Source: Methanospirillum lacunae
GTDB lineage: Archaea; Halobacteriota; Methanomicrobia; Methanomicrobiales; Methanospirillaceae
Direction: 5' to 3'
Assembly: GCF_003173355.1 (NCBI RefSeq)
Contig: NZ_QGMY01000002.1
Coordinates: 372,001-436,000, forward strand
Length of the DNA: 64,000 nt
Part shown: one piece after another, positions 16,675 to 30,626 of the stretch
How the letters are laid out: the number at the start of each line of letters is the position of its first letter
How positions within the stretch are numbered: the stretch's first letter is position 1
Position numbers and translations under genes: made by a program
Notes under the pieces: model-generated
Told to the model about the DNA's origin: nothing
What the model saw: only the letters and a program-made list of their open reading frames with translations
The model's database searches: none

Positions 16675-17727
16675 ATGTGCGGAATAATAGGCGTGATTGA
16701 TAAGACTCGCGAAACGATGGATGGGTCTGCAATCAGAGAAGCCCTCGCGATTATGGATGAACGAGGCAATGGTGAGGGCGCGGGATATGCTGCATACGGA
16801 GTATATCCGGATTACGCAGATCTGTATGCAATACATGTATTTTATGATAATATTGTCGAACCCAAGGAAAAAGTCGAGGAACTGCTTGAAACCTGGGGAA
16901 TGGTTGAGCATGATGAAGAGATCCCCACCCATGAAACCGGCCGTATAAAGAAGGTCCATATCCCATGGCGATATTTCTTCAGGCCAAACCGGAAACTGAT
17001 GCCACAGAGTGACACTCCTGAAGATGACATCGTCACTCAGCTGGTGATGCATGTTAATACGAAAATACCCGGGGCACTCGTCTTTTCATCAGGAAAGAAT
17101 ATCGGTGTCTTCAAGGCATCAGGATGGCCTGAAGAAGTTGCAGACTTTTACCGGGTTGAGGATTATGAAGGATATCTCTGGATAGCTCACAACCGGTATC
17201 CAACAAATACAGCAGGCTGGTGGGGAGGAGCTCATCCATTTAATCTTCTGAACTGGAGTGTCGTCCATAACGGTGAGATCACATCATATGGAACAAACCG
17301 GAGATATATCGAGAGCTTTGGATACATCTGCCGGATGTACACTGACACTGAAGTAGTTGCATACCTGATGGACCTGCTTGCAAGAAAGCACAGGCTCAGC
17401 CCTGAGCATGCAGTCCGTGCACTCGCCCCTCCGTTCTGGGAAGAGATCGAACGGATGGAACCCTCAGAGCAGGAACTCAATACTGCAATCCGCCTAACTT
17501 ACGGCCAGGCAATGATGAATGGGCCATTTGCAATAGCAGTGGCATCCCACGACTCACTCGTAGGATTCTCAGATAGGATCAAACTGCGGCCTCTCGTCAT
17601 CGGTGAACATGATCAACGTCTGTATGTCTCAAGTGAAGAGGCAGCAATCAGGACCATGGACCCTGATGTCAAGAAGATCTCAATGCCCCGTGCAGGTCAG
17701 CCTATCGTTGGGAGGGTTGTGGCATGA
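16675..17727 (+). CDS. Glutamate synthase, class II glutamine amidotransferase subunit
   Basis: This subunit hydrolyses glutamine to supply ammonia for glutamate synthesis. Cys2 directly after the initiator Met (MCGIIGVIDK) is the N-terminal nucleophile of class II amidotransferases. Further signatures are WIAHNRYPTNTAGWW and HNGEITSYGTNRRYIE around residues 165-205, then YTDTEVVAYL. At 350 residues it equals the separate amidotransferase domain of the large bacterial GltB, here split into its own gene. It overlaps the next gene by four bases (ATGA), so translation is coupled. Confidence 0.92.
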   Translation: MCGIIGVIDKTRETMDGSAIREALAIMDERGNGEGAGYAAYGVYPDYADLYAIHVFYDNIVEPKEKVEELLETWGMVEHDEEIPTHETGRIKKVHIPWRYFFRPNRKLMPQSDTPEDDIVTQLVMHVNTKIPGALVFSSGKNIGVFKASGWPEEVADFYRVEDYEGYLWIAHNRYPTNTAGWWGGAHPFNLLNWSVVHNGEITSYGTNRRYIESFGYICRMYTDTEVVAYLMDLLARKHRLSPEHAVRALAPPFWEEIERMEPSEQELNTAIRLTYGQAMMNGPFAIAVASHDSLVGFSDRIKLRPLVIGEHDQRLYVSSEEAAIRTMDPDVKKISMPRAGQPIVGRVVA

Positions 17728-19235
17728 TCATCGGATCACGCCCGCTCAAATTCCAGGTAACCCTTGATCATGATCAGTGCATGCTCTGTGGCCGGTGTGT
17801 TGATAACTGTTCTTACAATGTCTTCCGGATGGAAGATGGAAGAATAAAAGTCAACTCCCGGAATTGCGTTGCCTGTCACCGCTGTCTATCCCAGTGTCCC
17901 CGTGATGCAATCATGATCACAGAACGGCCATGTGATTATCGAAGTCACCCGGTATGGACTGACCGTGTTCGTGAAAATGTCTATAAGCAGGCTGAATCAG
18001 GAAAAATTCTCTCCGGTGGAATGGGTAACACCGGGGATTATCCTATTATATTTGATAGGATAGTTCTGGATGCCTGCCAGGTTACCAACCCAAGCATTGA
18101 CCCTCTTCGCGAACCGATGGAACTCCGGACATATATTGGTAAAAAGCCACGAAAGCTCGATATTACCTATGGTCCGGGCAATGATGTCGAGTTGAAAACT
18201 AAGCTTGTGCCAAACCTCAAACTCGAAACCCCGATCATGATCGGGCATATGAGTTATGGAGCAATCTCTCTGAATGCCCAGATGGCAATGGCTAAAGCGG
18301 TTTCACGAATCGGATCATTTATGGGAACCGGTGAAGGAGGACTCCATGAGGGACTCTACCCGTATCAGAACCATATGATTGTTCAGATTGCATCTGGTCG
18401 GTTTGGTGTTGATGTTAATTACCTGAACCGGGGAGCAGCCATTGAGATCAAGATCGGACAGGGAGCAAAACCCGGTATCGGTGGACACCTTCCCGGTGAG
18501 AAAGTCTGTGCAGATGTCTCATGCACCAGGATGATTCCTGAAGGCAGTGATGCAATCAGTCCGGCTCCTCATCATGATATCTACTCAATCGAGGATCTCA
18601 AGCAGCTTGTTCTCAGTCTGAAAGAAGCAACAGAACATCAGAAACCTGTATTCGTAAAAATTGCAGCAGTTCATAACGTCGCAGCAATTGCAGCCGGTAT
18701 TGCAAGGTCAGGTGCTGATGCTGTGGTTATCGATGGATTCAGGGGTGGAACCGGTGCAGCACCGGCTGTCTTCAGAGACCATGTAGGTATTCCGATTGAA
18801 GCAGCAGTGGCAGCAGTAGATACCAAACTCCGTCAGCAGGGAATCAGGAACGAAGTTTCAATCATCGCTTCCGGTGGTATCAGACACAGTGCTGATGTCA
18901 CCAAGGCGATATGTCTCGGTGCAGATGCAGTATATATTGGAACGGCTGCACTGGTTGCGATGGGATGCAGGGTCTGTGGAACCTGTTACCGGAACCTCTG
19001 TGCCTGGGGAATTGCAACGCAGCAGCCTGATCTTGTTGCCCGTCTCAACACTGATGAAGCATCGAGAAATGTTGAAAACCTGATTCATGCATGGACACTT
19101 GAACTGGCAGAACTGATGGGAGCAGCCGGAATCAACAGCATTGAGTCACTTCGTGGAAACCGTGACCGGCTCAGGGGATACATGCTTGATGAGTCGATGC
19201 TGAATGTTCTTGACATTAAACCGGTGGGGGCCTGA
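17724..19235 (+). CDS. Glutamate synthase, FMN/iron-sulfur synthase subunit
   Basis: This is the catalytic centre that makes glutamate from 2-oxoglutarate and ammonia on FMN. The N-terminus holds a two-cluster ferredoxin domain: Cys19, 22, 25, 29 and Cys48, 51, 54, 58. The FMN-binding barrel follows with IMIGHMSYGAISLNAQMAMA, GEGGLHEGLYPY and VVIDGFRGGTGAAP. The cysteines in MGCRVCGTCYRNLCAWGI (around 415-430) bind the 3Fe-4S cluster. This is the archaeal-type stand-alone form. It lies between the amidotransferase and GXGXG genes, which it needs for a complete enzyme. Confidence 0.94.
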   Translation: MIIGSRPLKFQVTLDHDQCMLCGRCVDNCSYNVFRMEDGRIKVNSRNCVACHRCLSQCPRDAIMITERPCDYRSHPVWTDRVRENVYKQAESGKILSGGMGNTGDYPIIFDRIVLDACQVTNPSIDPLREPMELRTYIGKKPRKLDITYGPGNDVELKTKLVPNLKLETPIMIGHMSYGAISLNAQMAMAKAVSRIGSFMGTGEGGLHEGLYPYQNHMIVQIASGRFGVDVNYLNRGAAIEIKIGQGAKPGIGGHLPGEKVCADVSCTRMIPEGSDAISPAPHHDIYSIEDLKQLVLSLKEATEHQKPVFVKIAAVHNVAAIAAGIARSGADAVVIDGFRGGTGAAPAVFRDHVGIPIEAAVAAVDTKLRQQGIRNEVSIIASGGIRHSADVTKAICLGADAVYIGTAALVAMGCRVCGTCYRNLCAWGIATQQPDLVARLNTDEASRNVENLIHAWTLELAELMGAAGINSIESLRGNRDRLRGYMLDESMLNVLDIKPVGA

Positions 19236-19236
19236 G

Positions 19237-19983
19237 ATGTCTGTTGTTGAGATCGATGCAAAGGGCATGCATTACACCCCTTTGAATAAACTGATCAGGC
19301 AGGCTGTCGCAGATGGTGTAGACGAGATAGTGCTGAAGAATGTGATGGGCCAGCGGTTCATCGGTGACGGACTTACCGGGAATGTCAAGATAACAGTTGA
19401 AGGCGTTCCCGGTGGCGACCTGGGCATGTTCATGAAAGGGCCCACTGTCATCGTGAAAGGCAATGCAGATCATGCTCCCGGTAACACGATGGATGAAGGT
19501 CTTATCGTCATTCACGGAAGCAGTGGTGATGCGACAGCACACAGTATGCGAGGAGGCCGTGTTTATGTCAGAGATGACATCGGATACCGTGGTGGAATCC
19601 ATATGAAACAGTATATGGAGAAAAGACCGGTCCTTGTTATCGGTGGTAATGCACGGGCCTTCCTTGGTGAATTCATGGCAGGAGGACTTATCGTCCTGCT
19701 CAGACTTGGCGAAAAAGAACCTAAACCATTTGCCGAGATGAGCCTAGCAAGTGGTATCCACGGCGGGGCAATCTACATCAGGGGACCGGTAGAGAAGTGG
19801 ACACTTGGGATCGGTGCATCTGCACGTGAAGCAACAACAGAGGATCTTTCTGTAATTGAACCGTTTGTCAAAGAGTTTTCTGAGCACTTCGGTTATAATC
19901 CTGCAGATATTTTATCATCTTCCTTTACAAGGATAGCACCGGTTAGTGCCAGACCATTCGCTAGTAAGTATATCTGGGAGTGA
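19237..19983 (+). CDS. Glutamate synthase, GXGXG structural domain subunit
   Basis: This is the right-handed beta-helix domain that forms the C-terminal part of bacterial GltB, encoded separately here (248 residues). The repeating glycine pattern is clear: GDGLTGNVKITVEGVPGGDL, then VIVKGNADHAPGNTMDEGLI, MRGGRVYVRDDIGYRGG and FMAGGLIVLL. The domain links amidotransferase and synthase in space. ATG 19237 was taken as the start: it lies one base after the preceding stop codon, and the earlier in-frame start would reach 30 bases into that gene. Confidence 0.92.
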   Translation: MSVVEIDAKGMHYTPLNKLIRQAVADGVDEIVLKNVMGQRFIGDGLTGNVKITVEGVPGGDLGMFMKGPTVIVKGNADHAPGNTMDEGLIVIHGSSGDATAHSMRGGRVYVRDDIGYRGGIHMKQYMEKRPVLVIGGNARAFLGEFMAGGLIVLLRLGEKEPKPFAEMSLASGIHGGAIYIRGPVEKWTLGIGASAREATTEDLSVIEPFVKEFSEHFGYNPADILSSSFTRIAPVSARPFASKYIWE

Positions 19984-21100: not shown

Positions 21101-22114
21101 ATGGACGATAGCAGTTCTGAAGATATCCCCCCTCACAGTCGGCTCAGTGCTGGCTGCACACTCTGTTTTGAGGGGGCTAAACTGGTTCTTTTTGTTACCG
21201 GCCTCTGCCAGAGAACATGCTGGTACTGTCCGTTATCCGGGCAGCGAAAAAACAAGGACGTCATTTTTGCAAATGAGCATGCGATCACTTCTCCTGATGA
21301 GATGATTGCAGTTGCTCATAAGATGACCGCACTAGGCACCGGGATTACCGGAGGCGAGCCGTTTCAGGTTATTGATCGACTGGTCACCTATGCAACAGCG
21401 TTAAAAAATGAGTTCGGGCCTTCCCATCAGATTCATCTTTATACAGGAATTGCCCCATCTCGTGATCAACTGATGCAAATCCGGGGCCTGGTTGATGAAA
21501 TAAGGCACCACCCTCCCCATGAAACCTGGTCCTCTATTAAAAACAGCGATTTTCATGAATCCATCAAAACTGCCAGGGAACTGGGATTTGATGTAGGGGT
21601 AGAAGTTCCATCCCTGCCTGGAATTGAGGCATTTCTTGCAATAATCGATGACCTTGATTTTTTGAACATCAATGAATTAGAATGGGGAGAGTCGAATGCC
21701 TCTGAAATGCGGGGTCGGGGTTTTGAACTCCGGGGCGATGTATCAAACGCTGTCAGAGGTGGAAAAGAAGCAGTCGCACCGATCCTCTTTCATTCAAAAG
21801 TTCACTGGTGCTCATCTGATTTCAAAGACCGGGTGCAGCTCCGGATGCGTCTGAAGCGGATAGCATCTAACACGGCACGGGAATTTGATGAGATCACCCC
21901 TGACGGCACAATCGTGTACGGCGTTTGTGAATGTGACGGCGGGACGTCACCGGTTCCTGATGATCTGGATACAGATCTGTATTCCCGGTTTGATGATCGG
22001 ATAGAGATGGCCTGGTGGGCTCTTGAATCACTAGTTGAAGTTATGCCTGGCAAAAAATATGTTATAGAACGATACCCTGATAACGGGCTGGTTGTTGAGG
22101 TGACTCCTCTATGA
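21101..22114 (+). CDS. Radical SAM protein, archaeal, upstream of cis-prenyltransferase
   Basis: The radical SAM cluster motif is Cys36, Cys40, Cys43 (CQRTCWYC), preceded by another pair Cys19/Cys22 (CTLCFEG). GITGGEPF near residue 85 is the GGE motif that binds the SAM amino group. The C-terminal part has HWCSSDFKDRVQLRMRLKR and VYGVCECDGG, with further cysteines that could hold an auxiliary cluster. The substrate is not recognisable. The stop codon overlaps the start of the cis-prenyltransferase gene (ATGA), so the two are co-translated. A link to lipid-carrier chemistry is possible but unproven. Confidence 0.75.
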   Translation: MDDSSSEDIPPHSRLSAGCTLCFEGAKLVLFVTGLCQRTCWYCPLSGQRKNKDVIFANEHAITSPDEMIAVAHKMTALGTGITGGEPFQVIDRLVTYATALKNEFGPSHQIHLYTGIAPSRDQLMQIRGLVDEIRHHPPHETWSSIKNSDFHESIKTARELGFDVGVEVPSLPGIEAFLAIIDDLDFLNINELEWGESNASEMRGRGFELRGDVSNAVRGGKEAVAPILFHSKVHWCSSDFKDRVQLRMRLKRIASNTAREFDEITPDGTIVYGVCECDGGTSPVPDDLDTDLYSRFDDRIEMAWWALESLVEVMPGKKYVIERYPDNGLVVEVTPL

Positions 22115-22887
22115 TACGGTCTCTCATTGAACCTCTCTATGAGTACTTCATCACTCGTCAGTGTCAGCATATTCCTACGCACATAGCAATCATCCAGGAT
22201 GGTAACCGTCGTTTTGCCAAAAAGAAAGGACTGACTACATCCTATGGTCACCGGGTTGGGGCAGACCGGACTGAAGAGGTTCTTGACTGGGCACAACAAC
22301 TTGGAATCCGGTATATCACGCTGTACATATTTTCAACTGAAAATTTCAATAGGACTGATTCAGAAGTCTCTGATCTTTTTACCCTGTTCAAGGAAAAACT
22401 GGCAAGCATCATCGATGATGAACGGGTTCACCGATATGGGATCAGAATCCAGATGATCGGTGATCGGGAATTGCTTCCAGAAGATCTCAGAGATGCAGTT
22501 GAGCGTGCAGAAGCAGCAACAGCTCACTATGATAATTTTTATCTGAACATGGCCCTGGCGTATGGTGGCAGAAATGAGATTCTGCAGGCTACAAAGAATA
22601 TATTAGGCGATGTCAGGGATAGTAAAATAAAAACAAGTGATATATCTGAAGATCTTCTTGAAGAATATCTGTACGGTAAGAATATAACAATTCCACCAGT
22701 GGACCTGATTGTCAGAACCGGTAACGAGTGCAGGATGTCAAATTTCCTTCCATGGCTTGCAAATGGTCATGAATCGGCAGTTTATTTCTGTGCTCCGTAC
22801 TGGCCGATGTTTAGAAAACTCGATATGCTCAGAGCTATCCGGGTTTATTCACAGCGAAAGGCAATGCTCAAACAAGTAGAAGCATAA
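22111..22887 (+). CDS. uppS: Cis-prenyltransferase, catalytic subunit (UppS family)
   Basis: This enzyme adds isopentenyl units in cis to an allylic diphosphate, making the long polyprenol carrier for glycans. The catalytic block is IAIIQDGNRRFAKKKGL, with Asp30 and the diphosphate-binding GNRR. Also present are YITLYIFSTENFNR, QMIGDRELLP, YGGRNEI and DLIVRTGNECRMSNFLPW. At 258 residues it is full length. The C-terminus (YSQRKAMLKQVEA) lacks the RxG motif that homodimeric enzymes use in the active site. A second family member that has RxG but lacks the DGNR motif lies at 23720-24346, so this may be the catalytic half of a heteromer. Confidence 0.92.
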   Translation: MIRSLIEPLYEYFITRQCQHIPTHIAIIQDGNRRFAKKKGLTTSYGHRVGADRTEEVLDWAQQLGIRYITLYIFSTENFNRTDSEVSDLFTLFKEKLASIIDDERVHRYGIRIQMIGDRELLPEDLRDAVERAEAATAHYDNFYLNMALAYGGRNEILQATKNILGDVRDSKIKTSDISEDLLEEYLYGKNITIPPVDLIVRTGNECRMSNFLPWLANGHESAVYFCAPYWPMFRKLDMLRAIRVYSQRKAMLKQVEA

Positions 22888-23335
22888 TGATATTTTTTTA
22901 AAATTTCGATTTAAGATATTATCACCTGATTTTTCTTTCTTATCTGAACCAGGGTAAATGTAATGATTATTTAAGAAGTTTAATACTGACTCGGATTCTA
23001 CCCATCCGATATCAAGTTGGTTTACGATCTGATTGATCTTTATAATCTGGTTTTCGAATTCGGCAAATTTGTCAGGACAATAAGATTCTGTCAATAAAGC
23101 AATAATTGTGAGTGGATTTCTGATTCCATTATGAAGTATGGCGAGTTCAGCAAAATTACGCTTGATTTGAGTTAATGCTATAGTTTTCTCTACCTCAAGT
23201 TGCTTTTCCCTGGTGATATCTTTCCCTGGGTTATGACTCCAATAGGGCATCCGTTTGATCATTTATCGTTGTAGCATTCCAGATAACAGGGATTAAAACT
23301 CCGTTTGGACGGATAATTGGCATCTCTTTTTCTTA
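22849..23335 (-). pseudogene. PAS/sensor histidine kinase fragment
   Basis: The minus strand preserves the C-terminal part of a PAS-containing sensor kinase of the type common in Methanospirillum. A PAS tail (EMPIIRPNGVLIPVIWNATT) lies in one frame. After a frameshift near 23240 comes GKDITREKQLEVEKTIALTQ, with the kinase-box-like ILHNGIRNPLTIIALLTESY and a C-terminal LDIGWVESESVLNFLNNHY. The rest of the sensor is absent and the 3' end runs 39 bases into uppS antisense. No ATP-binding domain follows; some methanogen proteins of this group also lack it. Not functional as it stands. Confidence 0.6.
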
Positions 23336-23719
23336 TATTCTCCCATGAACCATATCAATATTAAAAAGGAATTATTTGGTGATGCTGGGTACCTTAATGG
23401 GTTAATTGTCAAAACAACCTGTGATTTGATAAACCATCCAAAAGTCCGACATAGCCGAGGGTTACAGAAATTGATGCCCAAATAATTAGGATGTATCCCT
23501 AATGTACGGCTTCTGAAGTGAAACGATAAAGGGATAATTTTAACCACTTGAAATATCTATTATCACTTCTAGGTATCACATGATTTCACATTATAAATCG
23601 ATTTTTGACTTGTCTCCAGGATTTAAAGTAATAGGCAGAAAATAGGTGACGGTTCAAGAAATTTTGTCGTTTTGTATTAAATTTCCTATAAATAGCATCT
23701 CATGTTTGAGTGCCGATTA
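23336..23719. other. Gap between kinase fragment and second cis-prenyltransferase
   Basis: No intact gene. A plus-strand frame of 46 codons at about 23345-23485 (MNHINIKKELFGDAGYLNGL...) is open but unrecognised. The remainder is AT-rich and shows no supported feature. Confidence 0.3.
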
Positions 23720-24346
23720 TTATGCGCCAAACCGTCGTATACGAGACTGGAAATCACGAAAAGACCTTAAGATATCTACTTTTCTGAGTTCTCGCCAGTT
23801 CAGGTCCAGGAAAAATAATTCTGAGTACACTGATTGCCAGATCAGAAAGTCAACCAGGTGCGAACCCCCAGTCTTTATAACAAAGTCCGGCTGATGCTGA
23901 AAAGTCAGGTACTCTTCAAGCTTCTTCTCATCAATATCCTGTGGATCGGTGTGTTCATCTGCCATCTTCCTGATGGCATCAATGATCTCTTCACGTCCTG
24001 ATTTCCCTACTGCCACTGCAATAGGTATTCCTGATCCTGAATCCTCGGTAGTTTTTCCATAATGCAGGATCAGATGTGCCTTACTTGAAATGGTTCTTAT
24101 TACATTGAGATAAGGTGGATTGGGTTCAGGATCCCTGGTACTGATATGAATTGTAATACTTATAATTCCAGAATCATTTCCATAATGTCTAACAACATCT
24201 GATGATATTGAAAGACACCAATCTACCACCTGATTTATCTTTCCCGGGTCGTCCCGCATCTCCTCATCAGAGATCATAAAGCAGAGGTACCGGGGAATAC
24301 GCTCCAGGTTTCGCGCGATCCACCATTCATAAAACCTGTATAACAT
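23720..24346 (-). CDS. Cis-prenyltransferase homologue lacking catalytic motif (NgBR-like subunit)
   Basis: The C-terminal half is clearly UppS family: DEKKLEEYLTFQ, PDFVIKTGGSHLVDFLIW, YSELFFLDLNW and the ending FRDFQSRIRRFGA. The N-terminal catalytic block is gone: where HxxxIMDGNRR is expected there is PRYLCFMISDEEM, with no Asp-Gly-Asn-Arg. The final R-F-G gives the RxG motif that the catalytic paralogue at 22111-22887 lacks. This is the division seen between NgBR/Nus1 and DHDDS in eukaryotes, and to my memory in a Methanosarcina two-subunit enzyme. ATG 24346 (MLYRFYEWW) aligns best with the paralogue start; an upstream ATG at 24373 is possible. Confidence 0.8.
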   Translation of the reverse strand: MLYRFYEWWIARNLERIPRYLCFMISDEEMRDDPGKINQVVDWCLSISSDVVRHYGNDSGIISITIHISTRDPEPNPPYLNVIRTISSKAHLILHYGKTTEDSGSGIPIAVAVGKSGREEIIDAIRKMADEHTDPQDIDEKKLEEYLTFQHQPDFVIKTGGSHLVDFLIWQSVYSELFFLDLNWRELRKVDILRSFRDFQSRIRRFGA

Positions 24347-24553
24347 GGGCGTATTCTCCAAATATGGGGGCAATATTATCTGATGCGAACCAAATAGCCG
24401 GAATTTGAATCATTCATCCCGCAGGTTGGTTCTTGGACCAGCCTTATTAGTTTTTTTCATGAAGTATAAAAGGATTCGATCAACCTCTTTCTTTTTTCTT
24501 TCCTTTGATCTGGCACAGTTAATATAATTGCAGGTCAACTGATAAACAGAGCG

Positions 24554-29223: not shown

Positions 29224-30195
29224 TTATCCTTTCAATTGTTTAGAATCAATGTGTATCCGGTGATTGATGATTTGCCAGGAGATGATAAGTCGCACGAGAT
29301 CTGAACCTGCAATGACCTCCTTTCCTGTAAAAATATCTATCGGATGAACATCTGTCTGTTTTTCGATGTTACGTTCAATCCTGTGAATTGTCTCGTGGGA
29401 GAGTTCTCCATCTATGGTCAAAGATCTGATCCTGCGATTATCGAGATCAAGGGTCCCACATTCCAGTAAGAAATCATGGGTTGAACGGGTAAAAAGTCCG
29501 CACAGATCGATATTGAGTTCGACATCTTCAAAGCAGGTTTCGGGAGGTTTCATGCCAAGAGTAATTCGGTAGACATTACGGGAAATCCCGAGTGCTTTGC
29601 TATATCCAGAATAAGCGATTCTGATGACTGTTCCCGCTGATGCACGCTGTGGGAGGACAAACCTTCTGTAATCAGGTTCACGTTTCTGGATCTCCTCAAG
29701 GGCTGCCTCGGGAGTGTAGTTTCTTTTGCCAACATCTCGTCTTAATTTCCAGTCGTACTTTACTTCATTATCAGGATCTACGAAGATGGTGTAATCCATG
29801 TGCTGTAATAGAGCAGGTGTGGCAAAGGGATGGAGCCCCTCAAGAATAATAAATTTTGTCGGGTAAAATGTAATCGGATTTTGAAATGTTCCGGTTGCAT
29901 GCGAGTACACCGGTTTTTCTATAGGTTTGCCCATTTTCAGGGTTGCAACATCACGTGCCAGACGGTCTAGATCATTTGCTACCGGATTGAGAGGAGTGAT
30001 CTTCCGTTGCGCCCGTTCGTTCCGGTCATAAAGATGGTAATCATCCAATGTAATTGTTGAAACAATATCAGGTCCGAAGATTGCAGTGATAGCATCTGAA
30101 AATGTGGTCTTTCCGGATCCTGAATCACCTGCAACGCCAATGATATAGATATATGACGATGCCTGAATGCTGTCGTGAAAAGTAACCCGTGTCAT
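29224..30195 (-). CDS. prk: Archaeal phosphoribulokinase
   Basis: This kinase phosphorylates ribulose 5-phosphate to ribulose 1,5-bisphosphate. In Methanospirillum it is known as part of the RuBisCO-linked reductive hexulose-phosphate pathway. P-loop GDSGSGKT at 23-30; substrate and catalytic region TLDDYHLYDRNERA, YSHATGTFQNP, IILEGLHPF and KYDWKLRRDVGKRNYT. Start ATG 30195 (MTRVTFHDS) gives 323 residues; the longer frame adds an unlikely N-terminus running into dfx. It is 50 bases downstream of the superoxide reductase gene on the same strand, so the two are probably co-transcribed. RuBisCO is not in the window. Confidence 0.88.
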   Translation of the reverse strand: MTRVTFHDSIQASSYIYIIGVAGDSGSGKTTFSDAITAIFGPDIVSTITLDDYHLYDRNERAQRKITPLNPVANDLDRLARDVATLKMGKPIEKPVYSHATGTFQNPITFYPTKFIILEGLHPFATPALLQHMDYTIFVDPDNEVKYDWKLRRDVGKRNYTPEAALEEIQKREPDYRRFVLPQRASAGTVIRIAYSGYSKALGISRNVYRITLGMKPPETCFEDVELNIDLCGLFTRSTHDFLLECGTLDLDNRRIRSLTIDGELSHETIHRIERNIEKQTDVHPIDIFTGKEVIAGSDLVRLIISWQIINHRIHIDSKQLKG

Positions 30196-30245
30196 TTGGT
30201 TTGTAAAAAAATGGAATATTCTGGCAGATATCTGCTTTAATAGGA

Positions 30246-30626
30246 TTATTTTGCACTGGTCCACAGACCATGGACTGTGCAGTATTCTCTTGCAACTACG
30301 TCAGTTGTTTCACAGGGGAATTCTGCTTCTGGTTTTTCACCGGGAGAGAGTCTTTTGATGAAGTAATAGGCTCCACCATGAACCTCGATCCATTCAATGT
30401 AGTGCTTTTCTTCCATCGGATGAGGCACTTCACCACACTTGACAAGGATACCTGTTGCAGTTTTCTCAATAACTGGAACATGTTTTTCCTTTCCCTGATC
30501 TGCAGTTTTTTCTACCTGTTTTACCATATCAGCGCCGCAACAAACCAGGTTGCCGGCAGCCGGGTGAAAAACAACGGTAATATTTCCACACTTCTCACAT
30601 TTGTATACTTCATAGAGTTCTGTCAT
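30246..30626 (-). CDS. dfx: Desulfoferrodoxin (superoxide reductase)
   Basis: This is a 2Fe-type superoxide reductase that removes superoxide without making oxygen, suited to strict anaerobes. The desulforedoxin-type rubredoxin site is Cys10, 13, 29, 30. The catalytic iron site is His49, His69, His75, Cys116, His119, with HPMEEKHYIEWIE in between. At 126 residues it is the standard length. It is first gene of a pair with prk. A 31-bp near-palindrome lies 67 bases upstream. Confidence 0.95.
   Translation of the reverse strand: MTELYEVYKCEKCGNITVVFHPAAGNLVCCGADMVKQVEKTADQGKEKHVPVIEKTATGILVKCGEVPHPMEEKHYIEWIEVHGGAYYFIKRLSPGEKPEAEFPCETTDVVAREYCTVHGLWTSAK

Follow-up and report, generated by a model that had tools for sequence, protein, structure and literature searches.

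The window, a stretch of 64,000 nucleotides from contig NZ_QGMY01000002.1 of Methanospirillum lacunae, contains two convergent genes of the cis-prenyltransferase family (Pfam PF01255), referred to here as A and B, a radical-SAM-like gene upstream of A and the remnant of a histidine kinase gene between A and B:

21101..22114, + strand: radical-SAM-like gene (Fer4_12, E 7.6e-6), with a conserved linkage upstream of A
22111..22887, + strand: gene A, 258 aa, putative catalytic subunit of a cis-prenyltransferase (PF01255, TIGR00055, residue table, AlphaFold2 model)
22849..23262, - strand: dead remnant of a histidine kinase gene, confined to the H-box region; on the opposite strand it overlaps the 3' end of A
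22888..23719, no strand: gap of 832 bp between the stop codons of A and B (48-62 bp in the closest relatives)
23720..24346, - strand: gene B, 208 aa, putative non-catalytic, RxG-bearing subunit with a cis-prenyltransferase fold (PF01255, alignments, model)

Gene A matched PF01255 over its full length (positions 1-215 of 219, E 7.5e-70) and scored 241 bits against NCBI TIGR00055, for which the cut-off is 109.6. Its product contains DGNRR and ends in ...YSQRKAMLKQVEA, that is, without RxG, and its AlphaFold2 model, built from an alignment of related loci, had a pLDDT of 85.0. Gene B matched only the C-terminal half of PF01255 (107-219, E 2e-22), and its product has no DGNxR and ends in ...RIRRFGA. 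The initial annotation had described the first protein as bearing DGNRR but no terminal RxG and the second as having lost DGNRR and ending in R-F-G; both readings were borne out, the two open reading frames being where they had been placed, and so was the start proposed for B, as the ATG at 24346 (208 aa) fits the relatives better than a longer TTG start at 24373. A single-chain homodimeric UppS has the catalytic residues and RxG on one chain, and neither A nor B does. Human DHDDS and NgBR chains as well as bacterial UppS were among the cis-prenyltransferases matched by the model of B, obtained in the same way (pLDDT 85.5), along almost its entire length (Foldseek E 1e-9 to 1e-7). Judged by this predicted structure, therefore, B is a cis-prenyltransferase fold with its active site lost, rather than a fragment.

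Partition of the active-site residues between A and B

For residue scoring, E. coli UppS was aligned with 97 A and 85 B proteins from across Halobacteriota. UppS S71, N74, R77, R194, R200 and S202 were invariant among the 97 A proteins, D26, N28 and R30 were kept in 96 (the remaining row is gapped there), E81 in 95 and H43 in 94. In the 85 B proteins the catalytic positions were substituted or lost through deletion, and a minority retained R194, R200 or S202. The arginine preceding RxG (UppS R241) was found in 85/85 B proteins and the RxG arginine itself was R in 82 and K in three of them; the A proteins had variable residues at the aligned RRxG positions, where the motif is unconserved. Since 78 of the 80 named B loci keep a terminal RxG and the other two have KFG, this ending is beyond chance. 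The division of labour proposed at the outset, like that of DHDDS and NgBR, thus holds residue by residue in these 97 A and 85 B proteins.

The position of UppS E213, a residue important in UppS, is occupied by Glu in 85/85 B proteins and by V, I, T, L, F or Y, never Glu, in the A proteins ungapped there, 65 A proteins with an insertion at that position having been omitted from this scoring; human DHDDS has Cys.

Some A proteins carry an R-x-G within their non-aligned, variable tails, which we take as chance. One A protein (L078, genome G160, family f9) has the tail IRTWQVRRFGGQKYK, i.e. RRFGG, with RxG near the expected place; species of the same genus carry RRYSS where this protein has RxG.

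Occurrence and arrangement of the pair in Halobacteriota

The window genome (3.74 Mb in 25 contigs, 99.9% complete) has exactly two PF01255 genes, A and B, and no single-chain cis-prenyltransferase with DGNxR and RxG beside them. Within the order Methanomicrobiales the family was present in 60 of 61 genomes, nearly always as one full-length and one C-terminal-half PF01255 match. Across Halobacteriota, 195 of 197 genomes have the cis-prenyltransferase family and the B profile matched in all 195, counts that do not represent independent events, as the genomes, all from within this phylum, are species representatives; the other two of the 197 sampled genomes, both from the same taxonomic family, had neither A nor B. 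Individual inspection of twelve genomes whose scores were low or unusual showed that these, too, have a separate B, which ends in RRFG or RRYG and has no DGNxR. Taken together, these surveys indicate that a split cis-prenyltransferase is the rule in Halobacteriota, including the Methanomicrobiales that have no other cis-prenyltransferase. In one family (f15; loci L256 and L257, genomes G077 and G069) B is shortened to 164-168 aa with the RRFG end kept, and may represent a minimal RxG partner.

The convergent stop codons of A and B lie 832 bp apart in the window. The initial annotation had placed the genes about 0.8 kb apart on opposite strands, with a dead kinase fragment in between, and had guessed that they were once closer, all of which agrees with the present results. 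The gap measures 62 and 48 bp in the two nearest relatives, so the 832-bp spacing is a recent gain, and other relatives have a gap of 2 bp or overlapping 3' ends. The kinase fragment is a 137-aa open frame that resembles the H-box region found in many of the genome's histidine kinases, with identities of up to 51% over short stretches, and 18 related regions elsewhere in the genome match its residues ~10-110. Neither an ATPase part nor a further clear kinase remnant was found within the A-B insert, and comparison of the insert DNA with its own genome yielded only short weak matches, some of them in kinase genes, and no intact mobile element.

All 67 named Methanomicrobiales loci with the complete pair showed the convergent orientation, as did 38 of 39 pairs from further genomes, partly of the same species as the named loci. 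Approximately half of the gaps are no longer than a few tens of bases, the lower extreme being an overlap of the 3' ends (about -30), and the remaining ones amount to some hundreds of bases or more. A gap of ~760-820 bp recurs in Methanoregula (L152, L175, L180, L190, L208 and L209 among these loci); it contrasts with the near-zero gaps elsewhere and is independent of the 832-bp gain in the window.

A proposed heteromeric enzyme and its alternatives

The reviews consulted treat heteromeric cis-prenyltransferases mainly as eukaryotic, and the literature searched contained one archaeal case. In M. mazei, MM_0618 and MM_1083 are described as a heteromeric cis-prenyltransferase with C45-50 products and a presumed role in the synthesis of the glycosyl carrier lipid (Emi et al. 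2019, BBRC 520:291, as cited in PMC8131916). In a genome of 5,751,492 bp that we assign to Methanosarcina, A and B have counterparts with 48% identity over 249 aa and 30% identity over 223 aa, respectively, and in a 4.14-Mb genome likewise assigned to this genus A and B are 552 kb apart, consistent with the expected distance of MM_0618 from MM_1083. We infer that the Methanosarcina A and B genes are the counterparts of MM_0618 and MM_1083. A Methanosarcina enzyme had been mentioned in the initial annotation, aptly in that the Methanosarcina pair is orthologous to A and B, its assignment to the MM_ locus tags being presumptive. Both pairs combine an RxG-less catalytic subunit with an RxG subunit in what is presumably a carrier-lipid enzyme. 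They differ in that the two Methanosarcina genes are roughly 0.5-1 Mb apart, whereas those of M. lacunae are neighbours; in that the Methanosarcina A has a C-terminal extension and the M. lacunae A is short; and in that some Methanosarcina species, the one with the 5,751,492-bp genome among them, have a third gene of the MM_0014 type, which M. lacunae does not. The M. lacunae pair would belong to an already known kind of enzyme, and the generality of the split in the phylum, of which we found no description in the literature searched, is the added value.

Gene content, residue partition, the fold of each chain, co-occurrence, selection, gene arrangement and orthology to the Methanosarcina pair make it highly probable that A and B are one enzyme, with A as the catalyst and the tail of B completing the active site. 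In the human complex, the C-terminus of NgBR crosses the interface into the active site of DHDDS, where the backbone of L291 and G292 contacts the substrate phosphate and R290 lies between the two sites (PMC7573591). By analogy with the M. mazei and human enzymes, A would carry out the chemistry, its intact P-loop (DGNRR) together with RTG-x-x-x-R-x-S and related residues binding both isopentenyl diphosphate and the allylic diphosphate. B would be a pseudoenzyme that uses the dimer face typical of cis-prenyltransferases to pair with A, its C-terminal RRFG tail crossing the interface to complete the active site of A. The product may be a medium-length polyprenyl diphosphate serving as glycosyl carrier lipid for N-glycosylation, a role suggested by the M. 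mazei enzyme and by three genes for STT3-type oligosaccharyltransferases above the family cut-off in the genome. Assembly of the human complex into a tetramer is due to a C-terminal domain of DHDDS (251-333); given that A ends at residue 258 without this extension, a simple heterodimer seems likelier than a tetramer.

The loss of RxG alone is no proof of dependence on a partner, because M. mazei MM_0014, which is also RxG-less, is active partnerless and yields C25-40 products (PMC8131916). A could accordingly work alone as an RxG-less homodimer in the same manner, with B being regulatory or an unrelated pseudoenzyme. However, A is not close to MM_0014, as its match to the structure of that enzyme (7caq, E 1.9e-15) is far weaker than that to bacterial UppS (E 2e-48) and the TLGG tail of MM_0014 is absent from it. 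Furthermore, B accompanies A in every family-bearing genome sampled, and in alignments of relatives the C-terminal end is the most conserved part of B, all of which renders a self-sufficient A improbable.

The loss of the catalytic residues and the presence of a genuine pseudogene next to B might also be taken to mean that B is a decaying duplicate, as the adjoining kinase fragment is. Comparison of the window species with the two relatives closest to it gave dN/dS values of 0.07-0.09 for B and 0.02-0.04 for A; at about 0.09 B is under strong purifying selection and hence no decaying copy, and its open frame and conserved tail are maintained throughout the phylum, so that we regard decay as practically discounted. 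Somewhat less remote, but still very unlikely, is that B forms homodimers or joins a partner other than A, and that its activity is a different one. Yeast Nus1 is able to homodimerize by itself (PMC7573591), which lends some plausibility to self-pairing, but the aligned B proteins have lost the catalytic residues and the genome offers no further cis-prenyltransferase for B to complete. A heteromeric enzyme of A and B is our preferred reading.

Relation to eukaryotic and bacterial enzymes, and neighbouring genes

Human DHDDS and NgBR are mutated in glycosylation disorders. Like this complex and its yeast equivalent (Rer2 or Srt1 with Nus1), the Methanospirillum pair consists of a DGNRR-type subunit without RxG and a non-catalytic RxG partner, and the catalytic subunits of human and archaeal pairs alike have no Glu equivalent to E213. 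On the other hand, Methanospirillum B shows no membrane anchor and A does not have the C-terminal helix-turn-helix of DHDDS. The homodimeric bacterial UppS has the same fold, and all of its active-site residues are present if A and B are counted together; both residue sets are on one chain in UppS, whereas in Methanospirillum they are divided between A and B.

The B profile scored 120 bits against bacterial UppS and 47 bits against NgBR. Two approaches to a possible orthology of B and NgBR were discarded: with the N-terminal half of B, NgBR chains came first in the PDB but with an E of 0.23, and the fold search with the B model gave Z 12.0 for an NgBR chain (6z1n_B) and Z 12-14 for UppS and plant enzymes, which does not separate an NgBR-like from a UppS-like B. 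It is a tentative and rather doubtful proposition that the split is ancestral to the whole phylum, having arisen once from a duplicated homodimer before the classes diverged, and that DHDDS/NgBR descends from it. The survey makes the origin of the human complex testable by phylogeny, and the archaeal pairs constitute small natural systems, free of the human C-terminal domain, in which the function of the RxG partner can be studied.

The radical-SAM-like gene shares 4 bp (ATGA) with the start of A and is probably co-transcribed with it. In 131 of 132 Methanomicrobiales loci scored by script, a set that includes some species twice, the gene immediately upstream of A is a homologue, and in the odd one the homologue also adjoins A. 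It was likewise found within 0.5 kb upstream of A in 28/28 loci of family f9, where there is usually space for one small gene between the two, and near A in three further genomes (L238, L240 and L242). We found no description of this conserved linkage in the literature searched; as far as known, the radical-SAM-like gene is associated with the pair and is not part of the enzyme. Elsewhere in the window, a glutamate synthase, read by eye, is seemingly split at 16675-19983 into separate open reading frames with domains of the amidotransferase, ferredoxin/FMN-binding and glutamate-synthase C-terminal types, and a gene of the phosphoribulokinase/uridine kinase family (PRK, E 1.2e-42) lies at 29224-30264 on the - strand.
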